Made by a program: the position numbers and the translations under genes. Below, piece by piece: positions 38,280 to 63,435 of a stretch of DNA of 64,000 nt. Every line of letters begins with the position of its first letter. The stretch's first letter is position 1. Source of the stretch: Lewinellaceae bacterium (lineage in GTDB: Bacteria; Bacteroidota; Bacteroidia; Chitinophagales; Saprospiraceae). The notes under the pieces are model-generated. The model was not told the DNA's origin, ran no database searches, and saw only the letters and a list, made by a program, of their open reading frames with translations. Location of the stretch: assembly GCA_024644235.1 (NCBI GenBank), contig JAHELJ010000003.1:1-64000 (forward strand). The letters are read 5' to 3'.

Positions 38280-40619
38280 TTGAATATCGATTACCTGGAT
38301 ATTGATCAGATACTTGAAGAAAAGGGTAGAGAGAAAAAGTCACTCATACCAATTCTTCAGGCTATTCAGAAGAAATACAATTATCTGCCGGAAGAGGCAC
38401 TTAGGAAAGTCTGTGATTTCACCCAAATCACACCGGAGCAAATCATCAGTGTAGCCAGTTTTTATTCTCAGTTCCGTCTGCATGAAGTTGGTAAACATAT
38501 TATCAAAGTATGTTGCGGAACTGCTTGTCATGTGAAAGGGTCTCTACTGGTTTACGATGCCTTGCACCGGAAACTAGCCCTGGAAGCAGACAGACACACC
38601 GATTCCACGGGGACCTATACGTTGGAAAAAGTTCATTGTGTGGGCTGCTGTGCCTTAGCTCCCGTCGCGCAGGTCGATCAGGTGACCTTCAGCCATCTAA
38701 GTTCTGGTAAAGCGGAAAGTATTCTTTTGGAATTCGAGAAGCAATTGTTGGACGAGCCTTCTCGTTCCAGCCCCAAAGCAGAGGGAATATTTGATGGAGA
38801 AATAAAAATCACCCTGGATTCTTGCTGTGTTGCCAGTGGCAGTTCGGCTGTAAAGGAAGCGGTAGATCAGGTGCTTGAAGAAAATAATCTCCAGGTCAGG
38901 TTCAAACCAGTTAGTTGTGTCGGATTGTGTGCTCAGGTACCTATGGTGGAAATCAGTCCCCGGGATAAAAAATCATCCTTATATACCGAGGTAAAAGCCG
39001 AAGACGTACGCCACATTATTGAGAATCATTTTAGGCCGCATCGTTTCGTCGATAAAATCAAGCTAAGATTAGATCGGGTTGTTTCAACGATTCAAGGTGA
39101 CCATGCATTGAATGGTATAGAATGGCACAGTCAGGGAGTCAGGGACAAACAACTTCATGCCTTTCTGGGGCCACAGATACCTATCGCTACGCAATTCCGG
39201 GGAAGCATAAATCCATTGGATCTTGACGAATATCTGGAGATGGGTGGGTTTCAGGCTCTCAAGAAATGTCTTGAGAAAATGACACCTGAAGCCGTGATCA
39301 AAGAAGTACAGATCAGTGGCATTCGTGGCCGGGGAGGGGCTGGTTTTCCAACCGGGGTTAAATGGGAATTATTTTCGACCCAGGCTATACATCCCAAGTA
39401 TGTTATATGTAATGGAGACGAGGGCGATCCGGGAGCGTTTATGGATCGGATGTTACTGGAATCATATCCCTACCGGGTGATTGAAGGAGTGCTCATAGCC
39501 GCCTATGCCGGTGGAGCGGAACAAGGATATTTTTATATCCGGGCGGAATATCCGGATGCAGTGAGCAGGATTCGGGAGGCGATTTCGATATGTGCCGATG
39601 CCGGATGGGTGGGAACCAACATTCAGGGTACGGGTTTCAGCTGCCAACTGCAGGTGTATGAAGGGGCCGGTGCATTTGTCTGTGGGGAAGAAACAGCACT
39701 TATTAACTCCATCGAAGGAGACAGAGGATTCCCCCGGATCAGGCCACCCTATCCCGTGGAGGAAGGGCTCTGGGGCAAACCAACCCTGGTAAATAATACA
39801 GAAACCCTCGCTCAGATACCCTTTATTTTGAAAAATGGGGCTTCAAAGTTCAATGTGATCGGTACCGATACCAGCAAAGGCACGAAAGTATTTTCGCTAA
39901 CTGGTAAAATTAAAAACGGAGGCTTAATCGAGGTGCCGATGGGCACCACTATCAGGCAGATTGTAGAAGACATCGGTGGAGGAATTCCCAATGGTAGAAA
40001 ATTCAAAGCGGTTCAGATCGGGGGACCTTCCGGAGGCTGTATCCCGGCCAGCATGGCAGATATTCCGGTAGATTACGAATCCCTGAAAAAAGCAGGAGCC
40101 ATGATGGGGTCAGGTGGTTTGGTCATCCTGGATGATACGGATTGTATGGTAGATATGGCAAAGTATTTTCTTTCCTTTTCTCAGAATGAATCCTGCGGAA
40201 AATGTACTTTCTGTCGTATCGGTACAAAAAGAATGTTGGAGATATTGAACAAAATCTGTTCCGGTCAGGGGAAGGCGAAAGATATGGAGCAGTTGACCAC
40301 TCTCGCCGATTGGACGGTCAAAGGGAGTCTCTGTGGGCTGGGGAAAACTGCCCCCAATCCGGTGACCTCGACCCTGACTCATTTCAGATCAGAATACGAA
40401 GCCCATATTCAGGGGAGCTGTCCCACGGGGAAATGCAAAGAGCTGATAAAATATCAGATCACGGAGGATTGCATCGGTTGCACGATCTGTGTACAACATT
40501 GTCCAACGGAAGCTATTGCTTTCACTCCCCATGTGAAACACGAAATTGATATGGAAAAATGTATTAGATGTGATAATTGCAGAGAAGTATGTCCCTATGA
40601 AGCAGTCGAAGTAAACTAA
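38280..40619 (+). CDS. NuoE-NuoF-ferredoxin fusion, NADH-oxidising flavoprotein (operon gene 9)
   Basis: 779 residues, TTG start at 38280 (7 bp after gene 8). Residues ~1-150 are a NuoE-type thioredoxin-fold 2Fe-2S domain (C78, C83, C120, C124). Residues ~175-250 hold a second, shorter 2Fe-2S thioredoxin-like domain (SCCVASG...SCVGLC). Residues ~300-700 are NuoF: GRGGAGFPTGVKWE, CNGDEGDPGAFMDR for FMN/NAD(H), an SLBB-like part, and ESCGKCTFCRIGTKRM for a 4Fe-4S cluster. The C-terminus has two more 4Fe-4S motifs (CIGCTICVQHCP, CIRCDNCREVCP). The layout resembles HydB/HndC of NAD(P)-linked and bifurcating enzymes, but no hydrogenase or formate dehydrogenase partner is present. It is a cytoplasmic entry point for NADH electrons. 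Confidence 0.92.
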   Translation: MNIDYLDIDQILEEKGREKKSLIPILQAIQKKYNYLPEEALRKVCDFTQITPEQIISVASFYSQFRLHEVGKHIIKVCCGTACHVKGSLLVYDALHRKLALEADRHTDSTGTYTLEKVHCVGCCALAPVAQVDQVTFSHLSSGKAESILLEFEKQLLDEPSRSSPKAEGIFDGEIKITLDSCCVASGSSAVKEAVDQVLEENNLQVRFKPVSCVGLCAQVPMVEISPRDKKSSLYTEVKAEDVRHIIENHFRPHRFVDKIKLRLDRVVSTIQGDHALNGIEWHSQGVRDKQLHAFLGPQIPIATQFRGSINPLDLDEYLEMGGFQALKKCLEKMTPEAVIKEVQISGIRGRGGAGFPTGVKWELFSTQAIHPKYVICNGDEGDPGAFMDRMLLESYPYRVIEGVLIAAYAGGAEQGYFYIRAEYPDAVSRIREAISICADAGWVGTNIQGTGFSCQLQVYEGAGAFVCGEETALINSIEGDRGFPRIRPPYPVEEGLWGKPTLVNNTETLAQIPFILKNGASKFNVIGTDTSKGTKVFSLTGKIKNGGLIEVPMGTTIRQIVEDIGGGIPNGRKFKAVQIGGPSGGCIPASMADIPVDYESLKKAGAMMGSGGLVILDDTDCMVDMAKYFLSFSQNESCGKCTFCRIGTKRMLEILNKICSGQGKAKDMEQLTTLADWTVKGSLCGLGKTAPNPVTSTLTHFRSEYEAHIQGSCPTGKCKELIKYQITEDCIGCTICVQHCPTEAIAFTPHVKHEIDMEKCIRCDNCREVCPYEAVEVN

Positions 40620-42205
40620 TGATAATGCTGCCATTTAAAGTAGACAACCAGGAAGTAAAATATACGGAAGGAAGCTCTCTGCTGAAAGCTCTGCAGGAGC
40701 TGGGATATGAAATTCCCCACTTATGCTATTATGAAGGCCTCGATCATTATACCTCCTGCATGTTGTGTGTGGTAAAGGACGCAAAAACCGGACAACTAAT
40801 TCCTTCATGCTCTCTGAAAGTTCAACCCGGTATGGAGATCATCACGATTGATGATGAAATCGTGGAAGCTCGAAAAATGGGACTGGATCTTTTGTTGAGT
40901 GATCATGTAGGGGACTGCGAAGCACCGTGTACGAAAGCCTGCCCTGCCCATATGAATATTCCTGAAATGATCCGGTTTCTTCAGGCGGGTAAGATTGACG
41001 AAGCATTAGCAATTGTTAAGAAAGACATTGCCCTTCCCTCTGTATTGGGCAGGATCTGTTCAGCTCCTTGTGAAAAAATCTGCCGCCGGAAAGATATAGA
41101 CGAACCCGTGGCTATTTGTCTGTTAAAACGATATTCTGGAGATCTGGGCACCTCCAATGATATCTCCTGGATAGATCCCGATCCCGCACTTGAAGGCAAG
41201 CACATAGCTGTCATTGGTGCCGGACCGGCTGGCTTGGCCGCTGCATATCATTCTCGTTTAAGAGGACTCCAGTGCACGGTATTCGACCGGGAAGCCATAG
41301 CCGGCGGACAGATGCGGGCCATCGATGAGGAGATCTTACCGAAGGAGGTACTAGATGCTGAAATCGAATCCATCAGGAATATCGGTGTGGAGTTTAAACT
41401 GGGTGAAGAAGTGACCAAAGATTCTTTTCTCCAAATAGCCTCTGATTTTGACGCGGTCATTATCGCCACCGGTGCCATGGATACTCAAATAGAGAACTGG
41501 GGCCTGGAAACCTATAAACAGGGTATTATCGTGAGCAGAACGACTTACGAAACGAACATCCCCGGGGTGTTTGCCATCGGAGCTGCTCTCAAACCGATGA
41601 AAATGGCAGTCAAATCCCTGGCGCATGGAAAGGAAGCTTCCTTCTGCATCATCCAGTATCTAAAAGGAGAGGAAGTGACAGGAGAGCCGGGAATCTTCAA
41701 TTCCCGTTTCGGACGGATCCTGCCGGAAGAGGTAAAGGAATTCTTAAAAGAATCGACCGATCAACATAGAATTGAACCGATCTACGGAAGGGCTAAAGGC
41801 ATGAGCCTGGAAGAGGTAGTCGCAGAATCATCCCGATGTCTTCATTGCGACTGCCGCAAGATTGAGACCTGTAAGCTGAGGGTCTATGCCGACACTTATC
41901 AAGCCGATCAAAAAAGATTTGGAAGTGAAGACCGCCAACAGGTGAAAAAACTTTATGAGCACGGTAAAGCTCTTTACGAACCCGCAAAATGCGTCAAATG
42001 TGGAATTTGCGTGCGGTTGACGGCGCAGCATAGTGAAGAGTACGGAATGACATTCATTGGTAGGGGATTTGACATACAGATCGGTATCCCTTTCGACGAT
42101 GAATTGAGAGAAGGCCTAGAGAATATAGCGGAAGAGGTGATCAAAGCCTGTCCCACAGGAGCTCTTTCCTTAAGCAATATTAGCAAGAATGATCCGCAAG
42201 ATTAA
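40619..42205 (+). CDS. NuoG N-terminal ferredoxin fused to GltD-like FAD/NAD(P) oxidoreductase (operon gene 10)
   Basis: 528 residues, starting in a TAATG overlap with gene 9. Residues ~5-75 are a plant-type 2Fe-2S domain as in NuoG (PHLCYYEGLDHYTSCMLC and a later Cys). Residues ~95-165 bring cysteine-rich loops like the GltD/NfnB N-terminal 4Fe-4S region (CEAPCTKACP, ICSAPCEKICRR). From ~190 there is an FAD-binding Rossmann motif (IAVIGAGPAGLAAAYHS), though the NAD(P) half looks shortened. CLHCDCRKIETC near 405 and CVKCGICVR near 460 follow. It could pass electrons between NAD(P)H, flavin and ferredoxin, with gene 9 as partner. Whether it can split electrons between two acceptors is unknown. 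Confidence 0.88.
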   Translation: MIMLPFKVDNQEVKYTEGSSLLKALQELGYEIPHLCYYEGLDHYTSCMLCVVKDAKTGQLIPSCSLKVQPGMEIITIDDEIVEARKMGLDLLLSDHVGDCEAPCTKACPAHMNIPEMIRFLQAGKIDEALAIVKKDIALPSVLGRICSAPCEKICRRKDIDEPVAICLLKRYSGDLGTSNDISWIDPDPALEGKHIAVIGAGPAGLAAAYHSRLRGLQCTVFDREAIAGGQMRAIDEEILPKEVLDAEIESIRNIGVEFKLGEEVTKDSFLQIASDFDAVIIATGAMDTQIENWGLETYKQGIIVSRTTYETNIPGVFAIGAALKPMKMAVKSLAHGKEASFCIIQYLKGEEVTGEPGIFNSRFGRILPEEVKEFLKESTDQHRIEPIYGRAKGMSLEEVVAESSRCLHCDCRKIETCKLRVYADTYQADQKRFGSEDRQQVKKLYEHGKALYEPAKCVKCGICVRLTAQHSEEYGMTFIGRGFDIQIGIPFDDELREGLENIAEEVIKACPTGALSLSNISKNDPQD

Positions 42206-43301
42206 CATTAGTCTAATTCTTCTATTTCTGACATTCAACATACTTGCACAGGACCAGAATTGCTGGCCCATATTCAGAGGAAATCAGGAGTTGCAAGGGA
42301 TCAGCGATCTGGAGGTACCTGACTCACCTTCGCTAAGGTGGTCATTTGCATTAGAAGATCAGATCAAAGCTTCTCCCGTCATTTGTCGGAATATTTTGGT
42401 GGTGGGATCTGTGGATGGTTGCCTGTGGGCTTTAGATCACCAGGGAAATGAACTCTGGAGCTTACAGACAGATAATGCAATCGAAGCCCCGGTTACCATA
42501 GTTGGAGAAACCATATTTGCCGGTAATCTGGATGGGACCCTCCTAGCCATAAATCTACTCAATGGCAGTGAGAAGTGGAGATTTGAGGCGGACAACCAGA
42601 TCTCAGGATCAGCAAATTGGTGGAACAAGGGGGAGGAAATCCGGATAGTAGTAGGCAGCTATGACTATTTCTTATACTGCCTGGACGCACAGACCGGCGG
42701 GCTACATTGGAAATATGAAACTGATAATTTTGTCAATGGGGCGGTAGGTATCTATAGGAACGAAGCTATTTTTGGTGGGTGCGACGGGTTTTTGCACATC
42801 ATCGACGTGATCACCGGAAAACCCAGAAATAAAGTAGATATAGCCACCTATATAGCTGGTTCACCAGCAATCGAAAGGAATAAAGCTTTTATCGGAGATT
42901 ACGACGGACGGGTGACATGTGTTGACCTGGATAAAGGCAAAATTGTCTGGCAATTTGAACACCCTGAGTATCATTTACCCTTTCTCTCCTCCCCGGCAAT
43001 AGACCGCAACAAGCTAATTATCGGTGGCCGGGATAAAAACATTTATTGTCTGAATAAAAGAACGGGAAAACTCCTATGGGATCATCATTCAGGCGCAAGA
43101 GTGGATGCTTCTCCCGTGATTGCTGACGGGAAGATCATTACCGCTAATATGCGAGGAGACGTGCAGATATTAGATGTAAAAGATGGTGACGTATTGTGGT
43201 CTTATGAAATAGGGTCAGCTATCGAGGCTACCCCAGCTTGTGCTAACGAAAAATTCTTTATCGCAGCACATGATGGCAAGGTCTATTGCTTCGGTAAATA
43301 A
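42189..43301 (+). CDS. Secreted PQQ-like beta-propeller protein (operon gene 11)
   Basis: 370 residues, signal peptide ending NILAQ. It overlaps the end of gene 10 by 17 bp in another frame, which supports tight co-translation. The mature part has very regular PQQ-like blades, each of about 40 residues with SPVI / GS.DG.L.AL / G...W pattern (for example VVGSVDGCLWALDHQGNELW, IGDYDGRVTCVDLDKGKIVW), of the BamB sort. Fifth PQQ-like propeller of the operon. Periplasmic; no redox cofactor motif seen. Confidence 0.85.
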   Translation: MIRKINISLILLFLTFNILAQDQNCWPIFRGNQELQGISDLEVPDSPSLRWSFALEDQIKASPVICRNILVVGSVDGCLWALDHQGNELWSLQTDNAIEAPVTIVGETIFAGNLDGTLLAINLLNGSEKWRFEADNQISGSANWWNKGEEIRIVVGSYDYFLYCLDAQTGGLHWKYETDNFVNGAVGIYRNEAIFGGCDGFLHIIDVITGKPRNKVDIATYIAGSPAIERNKAFIGDYDGRVTCVDLDKGKIVWQFEHPEYHLPFLSSPAIDRNKLIIGGRDKNIYCLNKRTGKLLWDHHSGARVDASPVIADGKIITANMRGDVQILDVKDGDVLWSYEIGSAIEATPACANEKFFIAAHDGKVYCFGK

Positions 43302-43337
43302 AGGAATCATCCATTAGCTTAGAAAAGTATTTTACTC

Positions 43338-44645
43338 ATGCAAATAATCCACATTATACCAGGTTCGGGAGGGAGTTTTTACTGTGGCAATTGTCTACGG
43401 GATGTTAATTACTTGCATGAACTCCGGATGTTGGGTCACGAGGTTATCAAGGTTCCCATGTACCTGCCTTTATTTAAAGATGAACATGATCTGGAAGATG
43501 TTCCTGTGTTTTATGGAGCCATCAGTCTCTATCTCAAACAAAAATGGCCTTCATTCCAAGTATTGCCGAATTGGATTGACAAAATATTAAATTCAAAGCC
43601 AGCCTTGAAATTTGCTTCAAGCATGGCCGGCACTACCCGGGCTAAAGGTCTGGAAGAATTAACCATGTCAATGCTCTTGGGAGAATCTGGTCAACAAGCC
43701 GAAGAACTGGATAAGATGGTAACCTGGATTAGTGAGCATTGTCATCCTGATGTTATCCATCTTTCCAACGCACTACTACTTGGGCTGGCTCACCAGTTGA
43801 CCGAAAGATTAAATGTACCGGTGATATGTTCTTTACAGGATGAGGATGTCTGGGTAGACAATATGCACCCTGAGTTCAGCAAAAGAGTCTGGGCATTGAT
43901 AAACGAAAAAGCCACTCAGGTAGATGCATTTATTTCCGTCAGCGACTATTACACCGGGGTGATGCAGGAAAAATTAAGCCTCTCTGAGGAGGCTCTGCAT
44001 CGACTGCATCTGGGCATTAATCCGGAAGAATATAGTTTTCAACCAGCTTCAGAAAAGCCAGGAAATATTGGATTTATTTCCCAAATGTCCCATGGAAATG
44101 GTCTCGATATTTTAGTAGACGCGTTCATTGAATTGAGCAAGCATCCCGAGAGCAGTGAAATAAAATTGATATTGACGGGTGGTCATACCCATGACGATGC
44201 CCGATTTATCCGGGAGCAAAGAAGAAAATTACGAGAAGCAGGCATACTAGACAGGGTGGAATTCCACGAGAATTTTACCGGTAAAGGAAGAGAGGAGTTT
44301 TTTGAGAAAGTGGCGGTTGTCTCCGTTCCTGTACGCAACGGTGAGGCATTCGGCTTATATCTACTTGAGGCCCTGGCTTCAGGATCGCCGGTGGTGCAAC
44401 CCCATCTGGGGGCATTCCCGGAAATTATCAGCATTAGCGGAGGCGGAATAACTTACAAACCTAATCATCCGGGAAAGCTGGCAACGGCCTTAAAGAATTT
44501 ATTGTATGACCAGGATCGATTGTTTCAATTGAGTAAGTCAGGAAGAGAAGCAGTAATTGAACATTTCCATATTAAAGAACAAGCCTCAAAAATGCTTGAT
44601 ATTTACGAAGAGGTGATCAACAAACATTGTCATTCCCCCGGATAA
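43338..44645 (+). CDS. Family 4 glycosyltransferase (operon gene 12)
   Basis: 435 residues with GT-B fold: an N-terminal Rossmann start with a glycine-rich loop (IIPGSGGSFYCGNCLRD) and a C-terminal GT4 domain with FISQMSHGNGLDILVDAF, LILTGG, and the sugar-nucleotide motif EAFGLYLLEALASGSPVV (E-x7-E). It should transfer a sugar from a nucleotide donor to a glycan or lipid acceptor in the cytoplasm. It lies 36 bp after gene 11. How it relates to the electron-transfer genes is unclear: it may modify an exported component or a lipid carrier. Confidence 0.88.
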   Translation: MQIIHIIPGSGGSFYCGNCLRDVNYLHELRMLGHEVIKVPMYLPLFKDEHDLEDVPVFYGAISLYLKQKWPSFQVLPNWIDKILNSKPALKFASSMAGTTRAKGLEELTMSMLLGESGQQAEELDKMVTWISEHCHPDVIHLSNALLLGLAHQLTERLNVPVICSLQDEDVWVDNMHPEFSKRVWALINEKATQVDAFISVSDYYTGVMQEKLSLSEEALHRLHLGINPEEYSFQPASEKPGNIGFISQMSHGNGLDILVDAFIELSKHPESSEIKLILTGGHTHDDARFIREQRRKLREAGILDRVEFHENFTGKGREEFFEKVAVVSVPVRNGEAFGLYLLEALASGSPVVQPHLGAFPEIISISGGGITYKPNHPGKLATALKNLLYDQDRLFQLSKSGREAVIEHFHIKEQASKMLDIYEEVINKHCHSPG

Positions 44646-44755
44646 AGCACAAGCTGGAGAACGTTGAATATGACATGGTGTGTATTAAGTCAATTTGAGT
44701 CTTTTTGATTCACCGGAAATCTTCCAGGTTATGTCAGGTGAATGAAAACTAATTT

Positions 44756-45457
44756 ATGTTCTTACGCCTTAAACAAATCAGTAAAAGTTTTTTCTCAAAG
44801 GGAGTCCTCATTCGGGAAGTCCTTTCAAAATTATCTCTGGAAGTTGAAGAAGGTGAGAGCGTTTCTATCGTAGGTCCCTCCGGTTCTGGGAAAACCACTT
44901 TACTTAATATTATTGGAACCCTGGATCAACCCAATGAGGGTCAGGTCTTGTACAAAGAAAAAGATGTAAGTCTTTTCAATAACCAACAACTGGCCTCTTT
45001 TCGGAGCCGGCAAATTGGCTTCGTTTTTCAACAGCACTACTTATTGCCCCAGTGCACATTGTGGGAAAATATTTTGGTTCCAACTTTGCCATTGAAAGAT
45101 CGAGGTTGGAAAAATCAATGTATCCAGCGAGGGCAGGAACTGCTTAAAAGAACCGGAATCTGGGAACAACGCCATCAAAAACCTGGGGAACTGTCAGGGG
45201 GTGAATGCCAACGAGCGGCGGTGGTGCGTGCCCTGATAAACGCTCCCAGCCTTTTATTAGCTGACGAACCCACCGGTGCTCTTGACCAGAAAAATTCCGA
45301 TAATCTGGCTGAATTACTTTTCGAAATCAACCAGTCAGACCGGGTTACACTGATCATGGTCACTCACAATACTTCTTTGGCAGCAAGGGCAAACAAGATC
45401 TTTTTGCTGGAAGAAGGGCAGCTGAAACCTCACCGGGGAAATTCACCGTTATCATGA
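44756..45457 (+). CDS. ABC transporter ATP-binding protein, LolD/MacB type (operon gene 13)
   Basis: 233 residues with all NBD motifs: Walker A GPSGSGKTT near residue 42, Q-loop in GFVFQQHYLLPQ near 88, signature LSGGECQRAA near 142, Walker B LLLADEPTGALD near 165, and H-switch VTHNT near 202. It pairs with the FtsX-like permease that overlaps its stop (ATGA). Systems of this type work on the envelope by mechanotransmission rather than import. It comes 110 bp after the glycosyltransferase; this is the largest gap in the operon, so an internal promoter is possible. Confidence 0.93.
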   Translation: MFLRLKQISKSFFSKGVLIREVLSKLSLEVEEGESVSIVGPSGSGKTTLLNIIGTLDQPNEGQVLYKEKDVSLFNNQQLASFRSRQIGFVFQQHYLLPQCTLWENILVPTLPLKDRGWKNQCIQRGQELLKRTGIWEQRHQKPGELSGGECQRAAVVRALINAPSLLLADEPTGALDQKNSDNLAELLFEINQSDRVTLIMVTHNTSLAARANKIFLLEEGQLKPHRGNSPLS

Positions 45458-48400
45458 CCAGTCGCCAGCTAATTATTCAAACTATTAAACATTACTGGAG
45501 ACAAAATCTTATGCTCGCCCTGGGGGTAGCAGTGAGTACCGCTGTACTCACTGGTGCGCTAATCGTTGGTGATTCGGTTCGGCATTCCTTGGAAAGAATT
45601 GTCCATTTGAGACTGGGTGAGATTACCCATGTAATATCAGCTGTTGACAGGTATTTTTCTGCTGGCCTCGCCCTCCGCCTCGAAAAGAAAATCAATGCGC
45701 CGGTAGCCCCTCTGCTTTTGTTGGAAGGCATGGCAAGCAGTGACGGTGGAAAGTATCAAATACCGCGGGTGCAGGTGTTGGGAATCGATGAAAAATTTCC
45801 GGTGGTAACCGGTTCCACAATTTTAGCGATGCAGCATTCGGAAGCGCTTATCAGCAGGAACCTGGCTGAACGTTTAAACGTGGACCTAAACGATCAATTG
45901 CTTATCCGTATCAAGAAACTTAGCGTCATTCCCCTCAATACACCCTTTGTTTCGGATGCTAATCTGATCACGCCGGTCACGCTCACGGTAACCGGTATTC
46001 TTGCGGATGAAAATATGGGAAGATTTGATCTAAAAAATATCCAGACCGCCCCCTACAATATTTTTCTCTCTTTGGAATTTCTGAATGAGATCATGGATGC
46101 TCATGGAAAAATAAATCATTTGCTGATCGCCTCAAAGGCATCATCTGAAATAGAACCAGCACTTGCTCAGGTGGTTTCCCCGGAAGACATGAATCTAAAG
46201 ATAGAATTTAACGAAGTGCAGAGCAGCTGGGAAATTACCTCTGACCGGGTTTTTATCGATCGAGTGATTCAGCAAACCTTAGAATCAGAACCGATTTCAG
46301 CGGAGTCCATCCTTACTTATTTTGTGAATACGATTTCCTTTGCCGAGCGGGAAACGCCGTATTCCTTTGTTTCATCGACCGCCGGTGCTGCCCTTCAATC
46401 CAATGAAATTGTGATAAATGACTGGCTGGCAGAAGATCTCGCAGCTAGCCAGGGTGATACGGTCAACCTGGATTATTTCACCATAGGTCCTTTACGGCAG
46501 TTGGAAGAAAGATCGCACCCTTTTGTGATAAAAGAGATTGTGCCCATGTCCGAGAAATGGGCTGACAAAGCCTTAATGCCTCAGCTGCCGGGTTTATCAG
46601 ATGTATCAAATTGCCGTGATTGGGAAACAGGCATACCGATAAATTTGGAAAAGATTCGTGCGAAAGACGAACAATATTGGGATGCATACCAGGGAGTTCC
46701 CAAAGCATTTATTCCCTATGGCACTGCCCGAAATTTATGGACCAACCGGTTTGGGGAAAGCACTACATTGAGGATCTCTGATCCGGATCTCAGCCTGACG
46801 GAACTGGAGGAATGGATTTCCAGTCATATCGATCCGATGCAATTAGGATTTAGGTTGAATGATATTCGGGATCAGGCTGATCTGGCAGCAAAGAATGGGG
46901 TGGATTTTAGTCAATTATTTCTGGGATTGAGTTTTTTCCTATTACTGTCCAGTATATTTTTAACCGTTTTGCTCTTCACCCTGAATACCAGGACCAGAAT
47001 GAGTCAGGTGGGCACCCTCTCCTTCCTGGGACTTACGCATCGAAAAATCAAATTCCTGTGGCTGACAGAAGGTATGTTAATATCCCTGGTCGGAGCCATT
47101 GCGGGTTTATTACTGGCTATCGGCTACAATCACGTAATATTTAACGCGCTAAACTCCATCTGGTCGGATATTGTAAGAACCCCTACGCTGGAAACAGAAA
47201 TTACCCTGGCCACCCTGGCTATTGGCGGTGGTATCAGTATCGTGCTTTCCTCACTGGCTATCATGGTCTCCCTAAACCGACTATTAAAGCAGTCATCCCA
47301 CCATCTGCAAACCCGCACGATCACCCAATCAAAAAGATGGGGAAACGCTGCGAAAAATGCATTAATATTCCTGAGCGGCTTCATCGCTCTTGCCCTGGTT
47401 GTATGGAATTATCTCCAGACATCCTTTCAAAATGCTTCCCTGCTTTTTATCAGCGGCGCCTTATTATTAATTTCCCTCTTATTATTTGTGCATCAGACAT
47501 TCCAGCCGGTACAAGACAGACAGGACTTATCGTCCTTTCGACCTCAAATCTTCATCCTGCGAAATCTAACTCACAACTCCCGGCAAAGTTTTCTGGTCGT
47601 AAGCATGTTTGCAATCGCAACCTTTATCATCATATCTACCGGGGCCCACCGGAAAGACCTTTTTTCCCAGGCCCATGAGAAAAACAGTGGTACCGGTGGG
47701 TTTCTTTATTACGGGGAGGCAACTATACCTGTTCTAATTGATCTGAATGAACCCGAGATTAGGTTCCTGTCAGGATTGGAAGAGGAGTACCGTATCGTGC
47801 AGATTAGAGAATATCCGGGCGATGACGCCAGCTGCCTGAATCTAAACAGAATAAGATCACCGGGGATATTGGGAATTGATCCGGATGATTTCTCCGGGCG
47901 CTTTCGATTCATCTCCAAAATCCGGGATTTAGCAGGGGAAAACCCATGGAGTTATTTGCAATCTGACCTGGGGAAAGATGTTATTCCGGCCATAGCAGAT
48001 CAATCCGTCATTCAATGGGGATTGGGTTTGAAGGTTGGGGATACGTTGCAATATCTTGACGAGCAAGGAGAGATCTTGAATTTAAAACTGGTTGGAGGAC
48101 TGGCCAATTCTATATTTCAGGGAGACGTGCTGATAGATGCTCAACACTTTTTGAGGCACTTTCCCAGTAGCAGCGGATCCAATATATTACTGGTGGATGG
48201 TGATCCAAATGCCCAGCAAAGCATTGGGGAGGAACTGAAGGGCAGTCTGAGGAATCATGGCTTAGATTTGCAATCAGCACCAGAACGCCTGGCAACTTTC
48301 AATTCAGTTGAGAATACCTACCTATCTATTTTCCTGATACTGGGGGGATTAGGATTAATCATTGGCACCCTGGGTCTGGCGGCTGTGTTAGCCAGAAATT

Positions 48401-48699
48401 TGCTAAACCGCCGGAAAGAATTGGGAATCATGCAAGCCACCGGATTTACCCGTGCTTTCATCCTAAACCTGATCACCCGGGAGCACTTTTATTTATTATT
48501 AATAGGGGTTGGTATTGGTCTGATCAGTTCTATCGTGGCCACCTTGCCTTCTTGGCTAAATCCAAGCCTGGAAGTATCACCCTTGACCATTTTGATCCTG
48601 ATCACTTTGATTATCGGGAATGGTATGCTATGGATCACCTGGATCACGAACCGCTTCTTAAAAGGAGAGCAGGTGGTTGGTGCATTGAGAAGTGATTAG
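45454..48699 (+). CDS. FtsX/MacB-type ABC permease, large (operon gene 14)
   Basis: 1081 residues, starting within the stop of gene 13. It has an N-terminal helix (LMLALGVAVSTAVLTGALIV) and a long extracytoplasmic domain. A helix group follows near 485-610 with the FtsX motif region, then two helices near 635-690, a second periplasmic domain, and three C-terminal helices (near 950-1075, with LARNLLNRRKELGIMQATGFT, the classical FtsX coupling segment). It is a two-FtsX-domain permease as found in lipoprotein- or macrolide-type exporters. With gene 13 it probably moves or extracts an envelope component (lipoprotein, glycolipid or peptide). The substrate is unknown. Confidence 0.88.
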   Translation: MTSRQLIIQTIKHYWRQNLMLALGVAVSTAVLTGALIVGDSVRHSLERIVHLRLGEITHVISAVDRYFSAGLALRLEKKINAPVAPLLLLEGMASSDGGKYQIPRVQVLGIDEKFPVVTGSTILAMQHSEALISRNLAERLNVDLNDQLLIRIKKLSVIPLNTPFVSDANLITPVTLTVTGILADENMGRFDLKNIQTAPYNIFLSLEFLNEIMDAHGKINHLLIASKASSEIEPALAQVVSPEDMNLKIEFNEVQSSWEITSDRVFIDRVIQQTLESEPISAESILTYFVNTISFAERETPYSFVSSTAGAALQSNEIVINDWLAEDLAASQGDTVNLDYFTIGPLRQLEERSHPFVIKEIVPMSEKWADKALMPQLPGLSDVSNCRDWETGIPINLEKIRAKDEQYWDAYQGVPKAFIPYGTARNLWTNRFGESTTLRISDPDLSLTELEEWISSHIDPMQLGFRLNDIRDQADLAAKNGVDFSQLFLGLSFFLLLSSIFLTVLLFTLNTRTRMSQVGTLSFLGLTHRKIKFLWLTEGMLISLVGAIAGLLLAIGYNHVIFNALNSIWSDIVRTPTLETEITLATLAIGGGISIVLSSLAIMVSLNRLLKQSSHHLQTRTITQSKRWGNAAKNALIFLSGFIALALVVWNYLQTSFQNASLLFISGALLLISLLLFVHQTFQPVQDRQDLSSFRPQIFILRNLTHNSRQSFLVVSMFAIATFIIISTGAHRKDLFSQAHEKNSGTGGFLYYGEATIPVLIDLNEPEIRFLSGLEEEYRIVQIREYPGDDASCLNLNRIRSPGILGIDPDDFSGRFRFISKIRDLAGENPWSYLQSDLGKDVIPAIADQSVIQWGLGLKVGDTLQYLDEQGEILNLKLVGGLANSIFQGDVLIDAQHFLRHFPSSSGSNILLVDGDPNAQQSIGEELKGSLRNHGLDLQSAPERLATFNSVENTYLSIFLILGGLGLIIGTLGLAAVLARNLLNRRKELGIMQATGFTRAFILNLITREHFYLLLIGVGIGLISSIVATLPSWLNPSLEVSPLTILILITLIIGNGMLWITWITNRFLKGEQVVGALRSD

Positions 48700-48939: not shown

Positions 48940-51186
48940 TCAAAAATAGGCCCTGATAAGTCTGCGGTATCGATCCTCTCCTTGTAACACTTGTATATCA
49001 GGGTGGAGTTTTATCCATACCAGGTCCCGATAACCACTTTCGAGTGCTTTTTCCAAGTGGTCAAGAGCTTCATCTTTCTTATTCTGTGCTGCCAGGAATT
49101 GAGCAAATTGAAAATGAATCGTTGAATCCAATCTTAGTGCTTGTTTTCCTGCTTCCCTACCGGCATCCTTTTCACCAAGATGCGTAAGTATTATTCCATA
49201 AGAAATAAGTGATTTGGGGTCATCAGGAAAATTATCCAGCCACTTTTCAGAGATTGTTTTAAATGCAAGAAAATGACTCCTAGCATTTTCTTGCTTTCCC
49301 ATTAAATTGTAATTAACACCCAAATCATAGTGGGCCGACGATTCCCCTGGATTCTTATGGAGGATGTCTTCCAACAAGTCAACGGCATTATCATATTTCT
49401 CCTGAAGCCGGTACACATGGGCTAACCGGTATTGATTCATCAATAAATTCGGATCAAGATCCCGGGCCTTAAGATAAGCTACCTCAGCCTTCTCAAACTC
49501 ATCAAGGCCAACATATGATGATCCCAGATAAAAATACCCCCATGGGTTATTTGGTCCATGCTTTATCATACGATTGGACCAGGTCAGAGCGGAATCTATT
49601 TGTCCCAAATGCTCGAGATAAATCCAGATGATTCCACCATACGTGAGCATCATATACGGATCAATCCGAAGCGCAACTTTATATTCCTCAACAGCCTTTT
49701 CATAATAGCCCTGGTTTTGTAAATACCAACCCAAGTTATTATGTGCGACCGGATCATCAGGATATAATCCAATCCGAGCTTTTGTATAATCAATGCCTTT
49801 ATCCAGGTCATTCTCAACATTCACGGCATAAAAGGCAAGAATTCCATATTTTTCCTTATCGGTGAGATTATCAATATCCAAAATGGCCTGATCCAACCAT
49901 TTACGTCCCTTCTCCCGATCAAATCTTTCAAATAGTAAATTTCCTAGTGAGGCCTTTGCCGCAGTAAAATTACTATCGAAGCGAACAGCATTCTCATAAT
50001 GAATAATTGCTTTTTCAAATTCCTGGTTGATATGACTTTCAATACCACTAGAATATTCTTTAAGCGCATCTAAGGAGGAAGTAGTGACTTTTGATAAAGG
50101 TTTGCTTTGGCCTGCAATCCGATATCTGGACTCACCTAAATTTCTCCTTACCTTCTTGCTTAGCTGATCTAATTTTTCAATGATCTCATCCTCACCTTTT
50201 GCATAGAGGACATTTGATCTTAATATATTTCCTGTTTTAGCCTCCTGAATTTTTGCAGTAAGAATGTAACGGGTTCCTACCTTACTTATCGTTGGCACAA
50301 CACAAATTTTTACCCCTTCACGCATGGCTATTTCCTGACCAGCTTCCTCATCAACATACAAAATACTCTCTTTCTCCATACGCCTTAATGTCTGCCTCAT
50401 TCTCTGCATGGTAACTACATTTAAATGTCGCGATTGATTTATACTCAGAGTGAAGGCTGTGTTTAGTGAATTATCTAAGATCTTTTCACCCGTAAGGTTT
50501 TCAAAATCGGAGATCACAATCCAATCCCGCTCAGTAAAAGGAACTGATGTTCCACCATAAAACAGAAAAACAATTAACACAACAGCAGTGGCAATGATCA
50601 CAGGACTAAATAATTTAAATGTTCGAGAAGTAATAAGCTTACTTTTCTCATGTCTGTTTTTCAATTCCTTTTCTCTTACTTCTCTCACCGGCAGGGATTT
50701 ACAACTGACTTGATATACCTTGACCGGATCCTCAACATTCTTAAAAGATCGCTCCTCAAGAAATTGAGTTCTGATATCCGCCTTATTCTTAACATCCCTG
50801 TAGACTGATTCCGAAATGGCTATGCACCCCTCCCCAGCAGATTCCTGCAACCGGGAGGCAATGTTCACTCCATCGCCAAATACATCGGATCCTGCAAATA
50901 CCATCTCCCCTTCATGGATGCCTATTTTCAATGTAATATTCTTTTCCCGACAGGCTATTTGAATTTCAATGGCACTGCGGACTGCATCTGAGGCAAGATT
51001 AAAACTGATCAGCATACCATCTCCCATCTCCTTGATGATGGTCCCATCATATTGACTAATGATATTGCTATGTATATCCCGATTATCCCGTAACACCTGA
51101 AATGCACGACTCTCATCTGAACCCATCAGGGCCGTATACCCTGCGATGTCAGTAAACATGATGGCCGCTAGTCGATGTTCTTGCAC
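48940..51186 (-). CDS. Class III nucleotide cyclase with TM helix, FlgO/TolB-like domain and TPRs
   Basis: 748 residues from a GTG at 51186. Residues ~4-165 are a class III adenylate/guanylate cyclase domain: metal-binding D13 (FTDIAGYT) and D56 (MGDGML), and the GDGVNIASRLQ segment near 120. One transmembrane helix follows (~195-212). Residues ~222-355 resemble the FlgO/TolB N-terminal-like domain (WIVISDFENLTGE) that is common in such cyclases. The rest is TPR repeats (~370-748), which probably bind partners in the periplasm. It should make cAMP or cGMP in response to an outside signal. It is convergent with the ABC permease gene; 240 bp between them show no clear terminator. Confidence 0.88.
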   Translation of the reverse strand: MQEHRLAAIMFTDIAGYTALMGSDESRAFQVLRDNRDIHSNIISQYDGTIIKEMGDGMLISFNLASDAVRSAIEIQIACREKNITLKIGIHEGEMVFAGSDVFGDGVNIASRLQESAGEGCIAISESVYRDVKNKADIRTQFLEERSFKNVEDPVKVYQVSCKSLPVREVREKELKNRHEKSKLITSRTFKLFSPVIIATAVVLIVFLFYGGTSVPFTERDWIVISDFENLTGEKILDNSLNTAFTLSINQSRHLNVVTMQRMRQTLRRMEKESILYVDEEAGQEIAMREGVKICVVPTISKVGTRYILTAKIQEAKTGNILRSNVLYAKGEDEIIEKLDQLSKKVRRNLGESRYRIAGQSKPLSKVTTSSLDALKEYSSGIESHINQEFEKAIIHYENAVRFDSNFTAAKASLGNLLFERFDREKGRKWLDQAILDIDNLTDKEKYGILAFYAVNVENDLDKGIDYTKARIGLYPDDPVAHNNLGWYLQNQGYYEKAVEEYKVALRIDPYMMLTYGGIIWIYLEHLGQIDSALTWSNRMIKHGPNNPWGYFYLGSSYVGLDEFEKAEVAYLKARDLDPNLLMNQYRLAHVYRLQEKYDNAVDLLEDILHKNPGESSAHYDLGVNYNLMGKQENARSHFLAFKTISEKWLDNFPDDPKSLISYGIILTHLGEKDAGREAGKQALRLDSTIHFQFAQFLAAQNKKDEALDHLEKALESGYRDLVWIKLHPDIQVLQGEDRYRRLIRAYF

Positions 51187-51684: not shown

Positions 51685-52356
51685 CTATCCAACGAGATAG
51701 ATATTCCTGATAGTCATATAGATCCCAATTAAAATCAGAGTCCAGCCGGCGAATACCGGAATCTGAGCCTGCCAGCGTTCATTCAAGAGCTTTGTTCCTC
51801 CCCGTCTGATCAATATAGAAAGGCCGATGAGTGGCAGGGAAACCCCCAACGCATAAAGTATAGGAAACAAAACCACCTCTCCCTGCTGTATGGCCAGCGG
51901 AATCAAGAGCCCAAAAAAAATGGCAGCTGTTGCTGGGCAGAAACTCAAAGCCAGTAAAGCACCCATGGGGAAAGCTTGAAATCCCTGACTCCCCCGCCCC
52001 TCCACCCATTTGAGCATGCGACCCCGGTATTGTATGCTCCTGCCAATGAGATCTGCCAGTAACATACCAACCAGGATCAAGAGAGGTCCCAAAAGAGTGG
52101 TAATGATTTTTTGAAAGGCAAAACTAAGGGTGGGAATATTCAACAAACCCGTACTAAGGACGATGCCAATGAGCAAATAGGAGCTCAGATAGCCGCCAAT
52201 AAATAAAAAAGTTATCACGAAGAGACTTCGCTTCTTCTGAAACCAACCATTTAATAGAGATATCGCAGCCAGGTTAGTCGCCACGGGGCAGGGATGTAAG
52301 GTGGTCATCATGCCCAGACCAAAACAACTTGCTGCAGCTATAATCCATTCGTTCAT
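51685..52356 (-). CDS. ArsG/CcdA-like six-helix membrane protein
   Basis: 223 residues, about six transmembrane helices, no large soluble domain. It belongs to the CcdA/DsbD transmembrane (LysE-type) superfamily: TLHPCPVATNLAAIS near residue 20 and LSFCPATAAIFFGLLIPLA near 135 carry the paired Cys-Pro motifs expected to cycle thiol electrons or bind thiophilic metals. The same motifs mark the group annotated as ArsG-family efflux permeases, which occur beside ArsF-type thioredoxin-like proteins. Here the ArsF-like gene lies upstream, 224 bp away. It could transfer reducing power to the ArsF domain, or export an arsenical. Confidence 0.8.
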   Translation of the reverse strand: MNEWIIAAASCFGLGMMTTLHPCPVATNLAAISLLNGWFQKKRSLFVITFLFIGGYLSSYLLIGIVLSTGLLNIPTLSFAFQKIITTLLGPLLILVGMLLADLIGRSIQYRGRMLKWVEGRGSQGFQAFPMGALLALSFCPATAAIFFGLLIPLAIQQGEVVLFPILYALGVSLPLIGLSILIRRGGTKLLNERWQAQIPVFAGWTLILIGIYMTIRNIYLVG

Positions 52357-52580
52357 CTTTCGATAATCATATATTTAGCCGCCTCATCAGAATCGGCTAC
52401 CCGTAAGAATCTGAAATTTTACTGGAATAACCCAGTCTCTGAAAACCAGGAGTTCATGCAAACTAGCAGGAAATCACGATATCTGGTAATACAACATAGC
52501 GATCTAAATGATGGCTTATGCATAGAGTGTTTTATTGTCCGCTCTACTGTCCCATTCTCCGGATAAAAGGATTAAACAAT

Positions 52581-54140
52581 TCATCGGTCCAACAAAGTAT
52601 TGACTTCCCGGATCAGCATTTTTTTGAAAGCCTCATCATCCAGGTATAGATTCCAGGCCTCTTCAAGAATTTCCGTTTGCTTCAACTCCCCTTGCTCATA
52701 GCTCAGCAAGAACATGGTCGCAGCAAATAATCCCGATTCTCGGGTGAGGTCCCGGTAATCGATCCGGTCCATATTGATCATGTCAAACTTTATCATATTC
52801 CGGTCAACGGCATCACCGAAATGATCCTGCAAAACGGATTGGGTCAAGAATTCCATCCGGGTGCATTGCGGGCAACGCTTCTCATAGTGAAAAAGCAACA
52901 CCAAAAGCTGATCGTCCTGAGTGGGAGAAATTTGGGAAAATAAGCTGTCCAGATTCTGCTGGTTCGCCGTATCTATAAAATTCCTGTACGCAAATAGTAA
53001 ACTGACCACCACAAAAGAAAGTAGGACCCACCGGATGATTTTTTTAGACACAGAGCCGGTTCTCGAACGCAGGATCGCATTTACCGATGTTCTGATATCC
53101 GCATTCGATATAAACTCCAAATCATCTGCCGTAGCAAATATTTCATCTTTAAAAGCATATATAGTAACCGGGCATTCATGAGGTCCGGTGTCTTGTCGAC
53201 AAGCGCTGAGCACGTTTGCTCCCACCAACTGATTGGCTGCGCCGACTTCTTCCGATGGGCAACAGCCTAAGGTATCCAGGGGATCGGATCCAGTAAGAAT
53301 GAAGTATTTCTTTTGTTTTTCAATGACTTCCGTCAGTCGTTTTTTCAATTTGGGATGGACCTTGCGTAGGCTGGAAAAATCCGGGTCCTCCGCTCCGGCA
53401 TCAATTTTTACCGGTTGAAAATTGGAGACAAGCCATTTGGAACCTTGACTGGTATAGAGTTCCTGAAAAAACTCAGGATCTGTAGTCGCAGGACTGGTCG
53501 CGTTTTGCAATCCGTCCATTTTAATCAATCGGCTGGCTTCCACTTGCGGAACTGCACTCACCTGACCGCGCCGTACTACAGTGCCATCGGCAAGAATTAG
53601 CAATCTGAAAGGGCCGGGATAGAATAGCGGGGAGCGATTGGCTATATCCGCTCCGGGAGATACCAGCTGATATAATGTCTCCTGATCATTTTCAAAGGAA
53701 TCATTTTGAAAATGTATCGGTCTTTCCGTCAAGCTGGCTTTCCTTGAGGATGAAGACTCCTTGACCGAAATTAAATTTCTAAAAGGCGACAGCTGGTAGA
53801 TGGTGGCCGTTTTTTCACAGACCGCCCTTTCTTTTCCCGCGATCAACAAGTGATTATCATCGTCCAGAGCGGCAAGTGCTGCTCCCCTGTAAGTGGCCAT
53901 TCGTCCGGTATCAAAACAGGGACCATGCTTACCTTTATATGCTCTGATCACAGACCTTGCCCCTAGCGGTAAATCCGTCCTGATCTCCATCGCTATGTAG
54001 CCAATGGTCTCGAGGTCATGTAACGTCTGCGTCAATACTGACCGATCCACCGTGATCTCAATCATTCCCCCATTGGGTAGACCTCGATATAGGTCATCCA
54101 GTTGTAACCCATCCGGGTTATATAATTGCGTTTTTTCCAA
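52581..54140 (-). CDS. Fusion: ArsM-type C-terminal domain + novel middle domain + TM + ArsF-like thioredoxin domain
   Basis: 519 residues. Residues ~50-128 resemble the C-terminal domain of ArsM-type arsenite methyltransferases (YKGKHGPCFD, MATYRGAALAALDDDNHLL, AVCEKTATIYQ), but there is no methyltransferase Rossmann fold in front of it. Residues ~140-345 are an unknown domain with a cysteine pair (GCCPSEE near 300) and Cys residues near 321 and 330. A transmembrane helix (~373-393, WVLLSFVVVSLLFAY) comes next. The C-terminus is a thioredoxin-like domain with the motif RCPQC (~437-441), like ArsF-family proteins. It follows the cysteine desulfurase by 5 bp. Together this suggests arsenical or other thiophilic-element chemistry. 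Domain calls rest on motif recognition by eye. Confidence 0.65.
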   Translation of the reverse strand: MEKTQLYNPDGLQLDDLYRGLPNGGMIEITVDRSVLTQTLHDLETIGYIAMEIRTDLPLGARSVIRAYKGKHGPCFDTGRMATYRGAALAALDDDNHLLIAGKERAVCEKTATIYQLSPFRNLISVKESSSSRKASLTERPIHFQNDSFENDQETLYQLVSPGADIANRSPLFYPGPFRLLILADGTVVRRGQVSAVPQVEASRLIKMDGLQNATSPATTDPEFFQELYTSQGSKWLVSNFQPVKIDAGAEDPDFSSLRKVHPKLKKRLTEVIEKQKKYFILTGSDPLDTLGCCPSEEVGAANQLVGANVLSACRQDTGPHECPVTIYAFKDEIFATADDLEFISNADIRTSVNAILRSRTGSVSKKIIRWVLLSFVVVSLLFAYRNFIDTANQQNLDSLFSQISPTQDDQLLVLLFHYEKRCPQCTRMEFLTQSVLQDHFGDAVDRNMIKFDMINMDRIDYRDLTRESGLFAATMFLLSYEQGELKQTEILEEAWNLYLDDEAFKKMLIREVNTLLDR

Positions 54141-54145
54141 TTTCT

Positions 54146-55261
54146 TTAAAGCAGAAATTCGATCAAAGCCTTTGTTAAACTCTGTACCGACAAACTTGTC
54201 GTGCCCCGACCCATACTGATGCGAATGGTTCCCCGGGCTTCTTCCGCACTTCGACCCAGGGCCATAATCACTCTGGATGGGGTGATTTGATTTTCATGAC
54301 AAGCAGAGCCAGTCGATAAAGCATGACCGGACAAAGATAAGGCAGCAACTATTTCGGCACCGGAAAATCCGGGCAAACTCAGAGAGACGAATCCCGGCAA
54401 ACGCTCATCCGGACTATTGATCAATACTTCTGGTATGTGAGCCTTTAACTCCTTTAGAAAATGATGCACTAACTCATTCAGCCGGTCCCTTTCCGTCTCC
54501 ATAGATGTCAAACACTGCCCGAATGCGGTGACTGTGGTGACGAGTCCAGCCAGATTTTCCGTACTTGCCCGCAATTCCCATTCCTGGCTTCCGCCGTGCA
54601 ATAAAGGCTCAAAGTCACTATCCCGGATAAAGATGCCACCCACCGACCGGGGACCCCCAAATTTGTGGGCTGAAAAAGTATAATAGGTGGCTGCAATTTG
54701 TCCCAGATCCACCGGAATGTGACCCATTGCCTGCGCCCCATCAACCAGGAGTCTAATGCCTCGCGCTGCGCAAATGTCAGCAATGTCCGCTACCGGATGT
54801 ATGGTCCCCAGCTCATTGCACACATGATTGATGCAAACCAAAGTGGTCGTCGGTCTCATGGCCTCAATGAACTGATTCGGGTCAATTTGGCCCGACCGGT
54901 CAATGTCCAGGACATCGGTATGATCCGGGTATTTCTCCCGCGCATACCAGATACAATCATGGGCATCTTCTGCGATGAGCAACCTTCCTTCGAGAAATCG
55001 GAGTCGATGGCCTTCAATAATGGTATTGTTGGCTTCCGTCCCAGACGCGCACAGCAGTAGCCTGCCATCGGAAAAATGGAGCAAGTCACAGAAGCTCTTT
55101 TTTACTTCTAGAAACCTTTTCCTGGCTTCTTTTCCCGCTTGGTGAAGTGACGAAGGGTTGGCAAAAAACCGCATGGATATGTCCCGGAATTTTTCCAAGG
55201 CCTCCGGAAAAGGAGGGGTAGAGGCGGAATAATCAAAATATAGCGGATCAGGATAACTCAA
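54146..55261 (-). CDS. Cysteine desulfurase (class V aminotransferase family)
   Basis: 371 residues, TTG at 55261. It has the NifS/IscS fold: the N-terminal YFDYSASTP, PSSLHQAG near 37, ASGTEANN for PLP phosphate near 92, the aspartate in LVDGAQAMGH near 177, PLP lysine in SAHKFGGPRSVG near 203, and the catalytic cysteine in STGSACHENQ near 324. It would take sulfur from cysteine to give alanine and a protein-bound persulfide. A dedicated desulfurase 5 bp before the ArsM/ArsF fusion suggests that sulfur is delivered to that protein or to its substrate. It is not beside isc/suf scaffold genes. Confidence 0.88.
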   Translation of the reverse strand: MSYPDPLYFDYSASTPPFPEALEKFRDISMRFFANPSSLHQAGKEARKRFLEVKKSFCDLLHFSDGRLLLCASGTEANNTIIEGHRLRFLEGRLLIAEDAHDCIWYAREKYPDHTDVLDIDRSGQIDPNQFIEAMRPTTTLVCINHVCNELGTIHPVADIADICAARGIRLLVDGAQAMGHIPVDLGQIAATYYTFSAHKFGGPRSVGGIFIRDSDFEPLLHGGSQEWELRASTENLAGLVTTVTAFGQCLTSMETERDRLNELVHHFLKELKAHIPEVLINSPDERLPGFVSLSLPGFSGAEIVAALSLSGHALSTGSACHENQITPSRVIMALGRSAEEARGTIRISMGRGTTSLSVQSLTKALIEFLL

Positions 55262-63059: not shown

Positions 63060-63435
63060 GGTGGAGCTGCCGGGAGTCGAACCCGGGTCCAGCGAAAGTA
63101 CTCATTGGCCTTCTACATGCTTAGTCATTGTTTTTGTTTTCCGGATCAAGCCTGCTCAATGACCAGCCAACTTGATCCGTAGCCTCGAAGAGCTTCACTC
63201 GCCGGCCCGAGGCCTGCCATTGAGCTAACCTGCAGTTTGTTGATGTGCCTTTCCGCTGTGTAGCAGGTGTCAAGCGAAAGGCACAAAGGCTTTCTAATTC
63301 CTAGAATTAGGCAGCCAAGGCAAAGTTAGATTTGCCAATTAAATGGTTCATATCCATTTATTAACGGAGTGAGATATGATCCTCCGGCATGCTTACCAAC
63401 CAGTTCCCTTTCCTGTCGATTCCAATGTCAGCCCC
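63060..63435 (-). ncRNA. ssrA: tmRNA (transfer-messenger RNA)
   Basis: Rescues stalled ribosomes and tags their products for proteolysis. The 5' end GGGGCTGAC at 63435 and the 3' end GGGTTCGACTCCCGG...CAGCTCC pair as a seven-base-pair acceptor stem (with one G-U); the T-arm is canonical. The tag frame at 63336-63307 reads GGC AAA TCT AAC TTT GCC TTG GCT GCC TAA, so the tag is (A)GKSNFALAA. The CCA end is not fully encoded (ACC then T), so it must be completed after transcription. Length about 376 nt is normal. One-piece form. It is flanked on both sides by repeats, and its 5' end is partly duplicated upstream. Confidence 0.95.

Follow-up and report, generated by a model that had tools for sequence, protein, structure and literature searches.

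An ArsM-tail/ArsF fusion protein encoded between a cysteine desulfurase and an ArsG-like membrane protein in a Lewinellaceae bacterium

The three-gene cluster and the domains of the fusion protein

We analysed a window of 64,000 nucleotides from a Lewinellaceae bacterium (contig JAHELJ010000003.1, positions 1 to 64,000). On its minus strand three genes form a cluster, transcribed in the order cysteine desulfurase, fusion protein and ArsG/CcdA-type membrane protein (Table 1). The fusion protein, the main subject of this study, joins a domain resembling the C-terminus of ArsM to an ArsF-type thioredoxin domain by way of a domain without known relative and a single transmembrane helix. All three genes were present as described in the initial annotation, which had been made from the sequence alone, and the coordinates agreed with the 5 bp it had counted between the desulfurase and the fusion gene (54141-54145, from the stop codon to the TTG start). 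The fusion gene and the ArsG-like gene are separated by 224 bp of non-coding DNA (52357-52580) with a GC content of 0.39, whereas in the homologous locus described below this gap is missing and the two genes overlap. Around the gap two 28-nt copies, 71% alike, were found at 52362 and 52611; these may represent a partial duplication of the 3' end of the fusion gene, or chance.

Table 1. Features of the cluster, with positions in the window and the basis of each assignment.
Feature	Position	Strand	Basis
Cysteine desulfurase, IscS/NifS-like, 371 aa, first gene of the cluster	54146..55261	-	Pfam, NCBIfam, PDB alignment
Fusion protein, 519 aa, TTG start: ArsM C-terminal-like domain, orphan four-Cys domain, transmembrane helix, ArsF domain	52581..54140	-	
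ArsM C-terminal-like domain, fusion residues ~61-128, core match 67-116, Cys75 and Cys108	53757..53960	-	Profile, hhalign
Orphan domain (predicted cytosolic), fusion residues ~129-345, Cys293, Cys294, Cys314 and Cys323	53106..53756	-	No known relative
Single transmembrane helix, fusion residues 367-385	52986..53042	-	Hydropathy and charge count
ArsF-type thioredoxin domain, fusion residues ~396-519, RCPQC motif (Cys423, Cys426)	52584..52955	-	NF040494
ArsG-like membrane protein, DsbD/CcdA superfamily, 223 aa, Cys23 and Cys140	51685..52356	-	NCBIfam, DsbD_2

The likeness of the first domain to ArsM was detected with three approaches. Residues 70-116 of the fusion protein matched positions 253-299 of the 321 positions in the NCBIfam model for arsenosugar ArsM (NF038099, E=6.9e-5). 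When residues 1-140 were compared with 12 ArsM proteins using hhalign, they aligned to ArsM residues 172-322 with a probability of 96.7%. A profile built from 12 ArsM tails gave 27.5 bits for the fusion protein and 23.3 bits for its homologue, compared to 7.5 bits for the best of 2000 shuffled fusion sequences. Cys75 and Cys108 correspond to the two cysteines that are invariant in the tails of 10 ArsM proteins, and the ArsM type behind the match is the arsenosugar/arsinothricin type. A methyltransferase domain was not detected in the fusion protein with Pfam, and the likeness was confined to the C-terminal part of ArsM. A joint alignment of ArsM tails, ArsF proteins and the fusion protein misplaced the tails and was discarded. 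The kinship of the first domain with ArsM, on which the initial annotation had let its interpretation depend, was not overturned by the sequence evidence.

For the orphan domain that follows, searches against Pfam, NCBIfam, PDB and 395 genomes of the class returned chance-level matches only, and three loci with such matches contained repeats or unrelated genes upon inspection. Kinship of this domain with ArsM was rejected (hhalign probability 0.1%). AlphaFold gave a mean predicted local distance difference test (pLDDT) score of 41 for residues 1-370 with 12 aligned sequences and a pLDDT of 31 for the orphan domain with two sequences. Both models were too poor for a fold search, so that the fold assignment of the tail domain stays sequence-based.

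The transmembrane helix was taken as the best 19-residue hydrophobic window, flanked by a net charge of +3 on its N-terminal side and -1 on its C-terminal side. By the positive-inside rule, these charges predict a cytosolic ArsM-like half and a periplasmic ArsF half. Standalone ArsF proteins of Saprospiraceae have signal-peptide-like leaders, in keeping with a periplasmic ArsF. Residues 414-515 matched positions 3-105 of the 106 positions in the NCBIfam model for ArsF (NF040494, E=2e-15) with 57.1 bits, where the curated cut-off is 60 bits and a Saprospiraceae ArsF from another locus (L018) scores 108. The domain carries an active site of the HRCxxC type (RCPQC) and aligns with the standalone Saprospiraceae ArsF proteins, and in both genomes ArsG is encoded by the next gene. 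Thus the four parts that had been proposed from a reading of the sequence, an ArsM-type C-terminal domain, a cysteine-bearing domain of no known family, one membrane helix and an RCPQC domain of the ArsF sort, were all recovered.

The partner proteins of the fusion

The ArsG-like protein matched the ArsG model NF040495 with E=6.4e-46 and 156.5 bits, not reaching the equivalog cut-off of 200. The window protein itself had no Pfam match; Pfam DsbD_2 was matched by its orthologue in the second genome (72% identical, 6e-10) and by a Saprospiraceae ArsG (1e-18). Cys23 and Cys140, located in PCP and FCP motifs, were invariant in 11 ArsG sequences. Judged by sequence, the DsbD_2 kinship and the two conserved cysteines are features of CcdA-type electron carriers, in agreement with the ArsG/CcdA-like assignment made at first. 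The ArsG family is nevertheless named aromatic arsenical efflux permease, and ArsG could be a true organoarsenical efflux permease. The fusion protein would then be a membrane-bound reductase or chaperone that hands over a trivalent product, and the desulfurase would serve an iron-sulfur cluster in the four-cysteine domain. The four conserved cysteines of that domain could ligate such a cluster, and desulfurase genes are common next to genes of iron-sulfur clients. However, ArsG keeps the two membrane cysteines typical of electron carriers and no iron-sulfur scaffold gene adjoins the desulfurase gene, and we consider this explanation quite unlikely.

The desulfurase matched Pfam Aminotran_5 (6.2e-49) and the NifS model TIGR03402 (6.2e-69, far under the cut-off of that model), scored under all curated equivalog cut-offs listed and aligned to the structure of IscS2 in the PDB at 4e-52. 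It retains the lysine binding pyridoxal phosphate (PLP), the active-site histidine and the catalytic Cys321 in a GSAC loop. The fold, the PLP lysine and the catalytic cysteine are those of a group I cysteine desulfurase, and the profiles and catalytic residues uphold the identity given to the gene initially. The housekeeping SufS is encoded separately in both genomes, hence the desulfurase of the cluster is an additional one. Selenocysteine lyases in the PDB were matched as well, more weakly than desulfurases. This match, together with the ability of IscS/NifS enzymes to act on selenocysteine and the many thiophiles that are targets of thiol relays, would suit a module for selenium, tellurium or mercury, in which the desulfurase is a selenocysteine lyase or a donor of selenium or sulfur and the fusion protein serves to trap the chalcogen or metal, or to reduce it, across the membrane. 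Yet no recognisable selenium or mercury gene was seen in the cluster, while the ArsM tail and the ArsF domain both indicate arsenic. Such a module is the least probable of the explanations that we weighed.

Conservation and relatives in other genomes

A single homologue of the cluster was found, in a Saprospiraceae metagenome-assembled genome (G524, contig JABDMH010000125.1, locus L017), with the same three genes in the same order. Co-occurrence of the three genes elsewhere, which the initial annotation had called for, was therefore observed, in two genomes in all. The window proteins are 74% (desulfurase), 59% (fusion) and 72% (ArsG) identical to their counterparts, and no other desulfurase orthologue was detected at E<1e-60 among 298 Saprospiraceae genomes. 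The homologous fusion protein also starts with TTG and comprises 521 aa in an open frame of 523 codons; its start is thus nearly fixed, which supports the TTG start in the window. Each of the eight cysteines in the window fusion has its counterpart in the homologue. In the orphan domain, 57% identical, the four cysteines are kept and the ratio of nonsynonymous to synonymous differences (pN/pS) was 0.38. Across the ArsM-like, orphan and ArsF regions the ratio ranged over approx. 0.29-0.38; the transmembrane segment gave 0.49, and the two partner proteins, desulfurase and ArsG, approx. 0.21. As synonymous sites were near saturation, absolute dN/dS values are rough; as judged from these ratios every domain of the fusion protein is under purifying selection. 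We concluded that the arrangement, conserved in a second genome and under purifying selection, is not due to chance, and the parts, their order and their conservation are established at the level of sequence comparison.

Beside the cluster six collinear genes were found in both genomes with 65-82% identity (window 38280-48699, plus strand; L040 11976-20672). By reading their sequences we named them NuoF-like, GltD-like, pyrroloquinoline quinone (PQQ)-repeat-like, glycosyltransferase, ATP-binding cassette (ABC) ATPase and FtsX-type. The two loci hence go back to one ancestral locus and do not count as independent. No third genome with the cluster was found among 395 genomes of the phylum, 398 of the family, 398 of the order (with overlap between these draws) and 6 from the genus of the homologue. 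Scans of genome and viral contig collections returned the known homologue or nothing, and are weak negatives as the peptide patterns were poorly chosen. An origin of the module from foreign DNA was not supported by its GC content (0.473 vs 0.452, standard deviation 0.021). Positions 48940-51186 of the window (minus strand), located between the FtsX-type gene and the cluster, encode a protein of 748 aa in which an adenylate/guanylate cyclase domain is combined with tetratricopeptide repeats; a search of the homologous locus L040 showed no counterpart.

Relatives of the single parts were found in other settings. Approx. 20 standalone ArsF genes were retrieved from Saprospiraceae, nearly all with an ArsG gene inside the fetched 3 kb. 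Many of these loci have an ArsP-type permease nearby, and some adjoin a gene for an ArsE/MTH895 protein, an ArsR-like regulator, a rhodanese or FmdE. Rhodanese and FmdE-domain proteins are repeatedly encoded next to such pairs of ArsF and ArsG (L024, L025, L027, L030), which suggests a larger redox module. Apart from the fusion, the ArsM tail was found only in full-length ArsM, namely in 12 Bacteroidota loci, a cyanobacterial plasmid arsM and a plasmid operon of Staphylococcus, and in one further, unannotated match in Cupriavidus. The ArsM of the Staphylococcus operon (arsR-permease-arsM, plasmid pSA159, L066 4012-6381) likewise carries this C-terminal domain and is recognised by the model for arsinothricin-type ArsM, with a score under its cut-off. 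Two weak matches to the ArsM tail in the nitrogenase-like loci L013 and L014, outside an ArsM gene, were taken as chance.

The host has a separate arsR-arsM operon with a canonical ArsM (NF008823, 321 bits, above the cut-off), and such an operon was also found in the genome of the homologue. Trivalent methylarsenicals are therefore a likely internal substrate in both. An arsenosugar ArsM over the cut-off was found neither in the host nor in G524, and a clear Acr3 only in G524. In a position distant from the cluster, the window also carries a tmRNA gene (63060-63435, minus strand) with the tag peptide GKSNFALAA.

A possible thiol relay and its relation to known arsenic systems

We tentatively read the cluster as a rewired version of the ArsE-F-G module that acts as a thiol relay across the membrane for an arsenical or a close thiophilic analogue, and put the chances of this reading somewhat short of even. 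Arsenic was favoured mainly because, of the fusion's three parts, two have named relatives linked to arsenic by family annotation. Since ArsG lies within the DsbD/CcdA superfamily, a rewired thiol-electron module of the ArsE-F-G type, probably for an arsenical, is the most likely of the readings. We infer the topology, electron flow, arsenical substrate and persulfide transfer as follows. Cytosolic thiols would donate electrons, ArsG would carry these over the membrane, and the ArsF domain would receive them in the periplasm and reduce the substrate there. The cytosolic half of the fusion would stand in for the free cytosolic carrier ArsE, with the ArsM-like part (Cys75, Cys108) and the four-cysteine domain binding the arsenical. 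The persulfide of the desulfurase may pass to these cysteines and either thiolate the arsenical or regenerate thiols. The suggestion in the initial annotation that persulfide or thiol electrons act on an arsenical near the membrane is plausible.

Membership of ArsG in the DsbD/CcdA superfamily also speaks for an ordinary CcdA/thioredoxin system supplying reductant to the periplasm (for cytochrome c, methionine sulfoxide or disulfide repair), which would have borrowed the ArsM tail as a generic thiol or metal scaffold and whose substrate is not arsenic. In line with this, the cluster is without an ars regulator or arsenic pump, its conserved neighbours are electron-transfer and ABC/FtsX genes and not ars genes, and the ArsF and ArsG matches lie under the curated cut-offs. 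On the other hand, both the ArsF part and the ArsG part are closer to ars-linked families than to CcmG, ResA or DsbD, and the ArsM C-terminal domain was otherwise found only in ArsM. On balance we hold an ordinary reductant system to be doubtful, though by no means negligible.

Several observations weigh against a thiol relay for arsenicals. The ArsF and ArsG scores are both below the curated cut-offs, and the orphan domain is without known relative and poorly predicted in structure. Inspection of the open reading frames of the cluster showed no ArsR, Acr3 or ArsP gene in the local module, in accordance with the lack of ArsR, Acr3 and methyltransferase domain stated earlier, and ArsP was not found in the host or G524 either. 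Co-occurrence was perfect but in two related genomes at a syntenic site, and is weak evidence. The desulfurase is tied to the fusion protein by co-location, and sulfur transfer between them we only infer. In a passage of PMC9144182 experiments are cited according to which ArsG is an organoarsenical efflux transporter; if that role holds, the relay would be wrong or incomplete.

Very unlikely in our view is an arsenic thiolation system, in which the desulfurase would load persulfide onto the membrane-bound ArsM-tail/four-cysteine protein, which would make or unmake a cytosolic thioarsenical; the redox balance in the periplasm would be left to ArsG and the ArsF domain. Literature pairing 'cysteine desulfurase' with 'ars operon' gave incidental co-mentions only, to judge by titles and abstracts.

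The cluster resembles a familiar arsenic redox module whose parts have been newly arranged. ArsEFG was reportedly described by Chen, Zhang and Rosen (2019, doi 10.1021/acs.est.9b01187) as a module for detoxification of roxarsone and nitarsone. Our cluster shares with ArsEFG an ArsF-type thioredoxin domain and, downstream of it on the same strand, an ArsG gene. The cluster differs in that no ArsE (MTH895 thioredoxin) was found among its open reading frames, a cysteine desulfurase is added, and ArsF and ArsG score under the family cut-offs. Furthermore, ArsF is fused via the transmembrane helix behind the ArsM tail and the orphan domain, whereas in ArsEFG it is a short exported protein. With the published trio of a CcdA-like membrane protein, a thioredoxin and an MTH895/ArsE-family protein the cluster shares the first two, but it has no arsC, arsenic pump or third protein. 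As NCBIfam equates MTH895 with the ArsE family, it seems that both bodies of literature deal with one and the same trio, which is our own identification. With arsenosugar (NF038099) and arsinothricin-type ArsM (NF040538) the fusion shares the C-terminal pattern GPC...TG...Y.G...DD..H...C.KTA and its two invariant cysteines, but it lacks the methyltransferase fold, and the final GGGCC tail is not at a homologous position. The desulfurase resembles the IscS/NifS group I enzymes in fold, PLP lysine and catalytic cysteine loop; it differs in scoring under the listed equivalog cut-offs and in having no scaffold or iron-sulfur gene alongside.

If the cluster does act on arsenic, it would unite the tail of the organoarsenical-making ArsM, the ArsEFG redox module and cysteine-derived sulfur, which were previously not known to be joined. 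The fusion offers a single protein in which the role of the ArsM tail could be tested without a methyltransferase, and ArsG as carrier versus pump. Thioarsenicals are widespread in the environment and, to our knowledge, few genes have been assigned to them; should the desulfurase serve thiolation, the cluster would provide a genetic system devoted to making thioarsenicals enzymatically.

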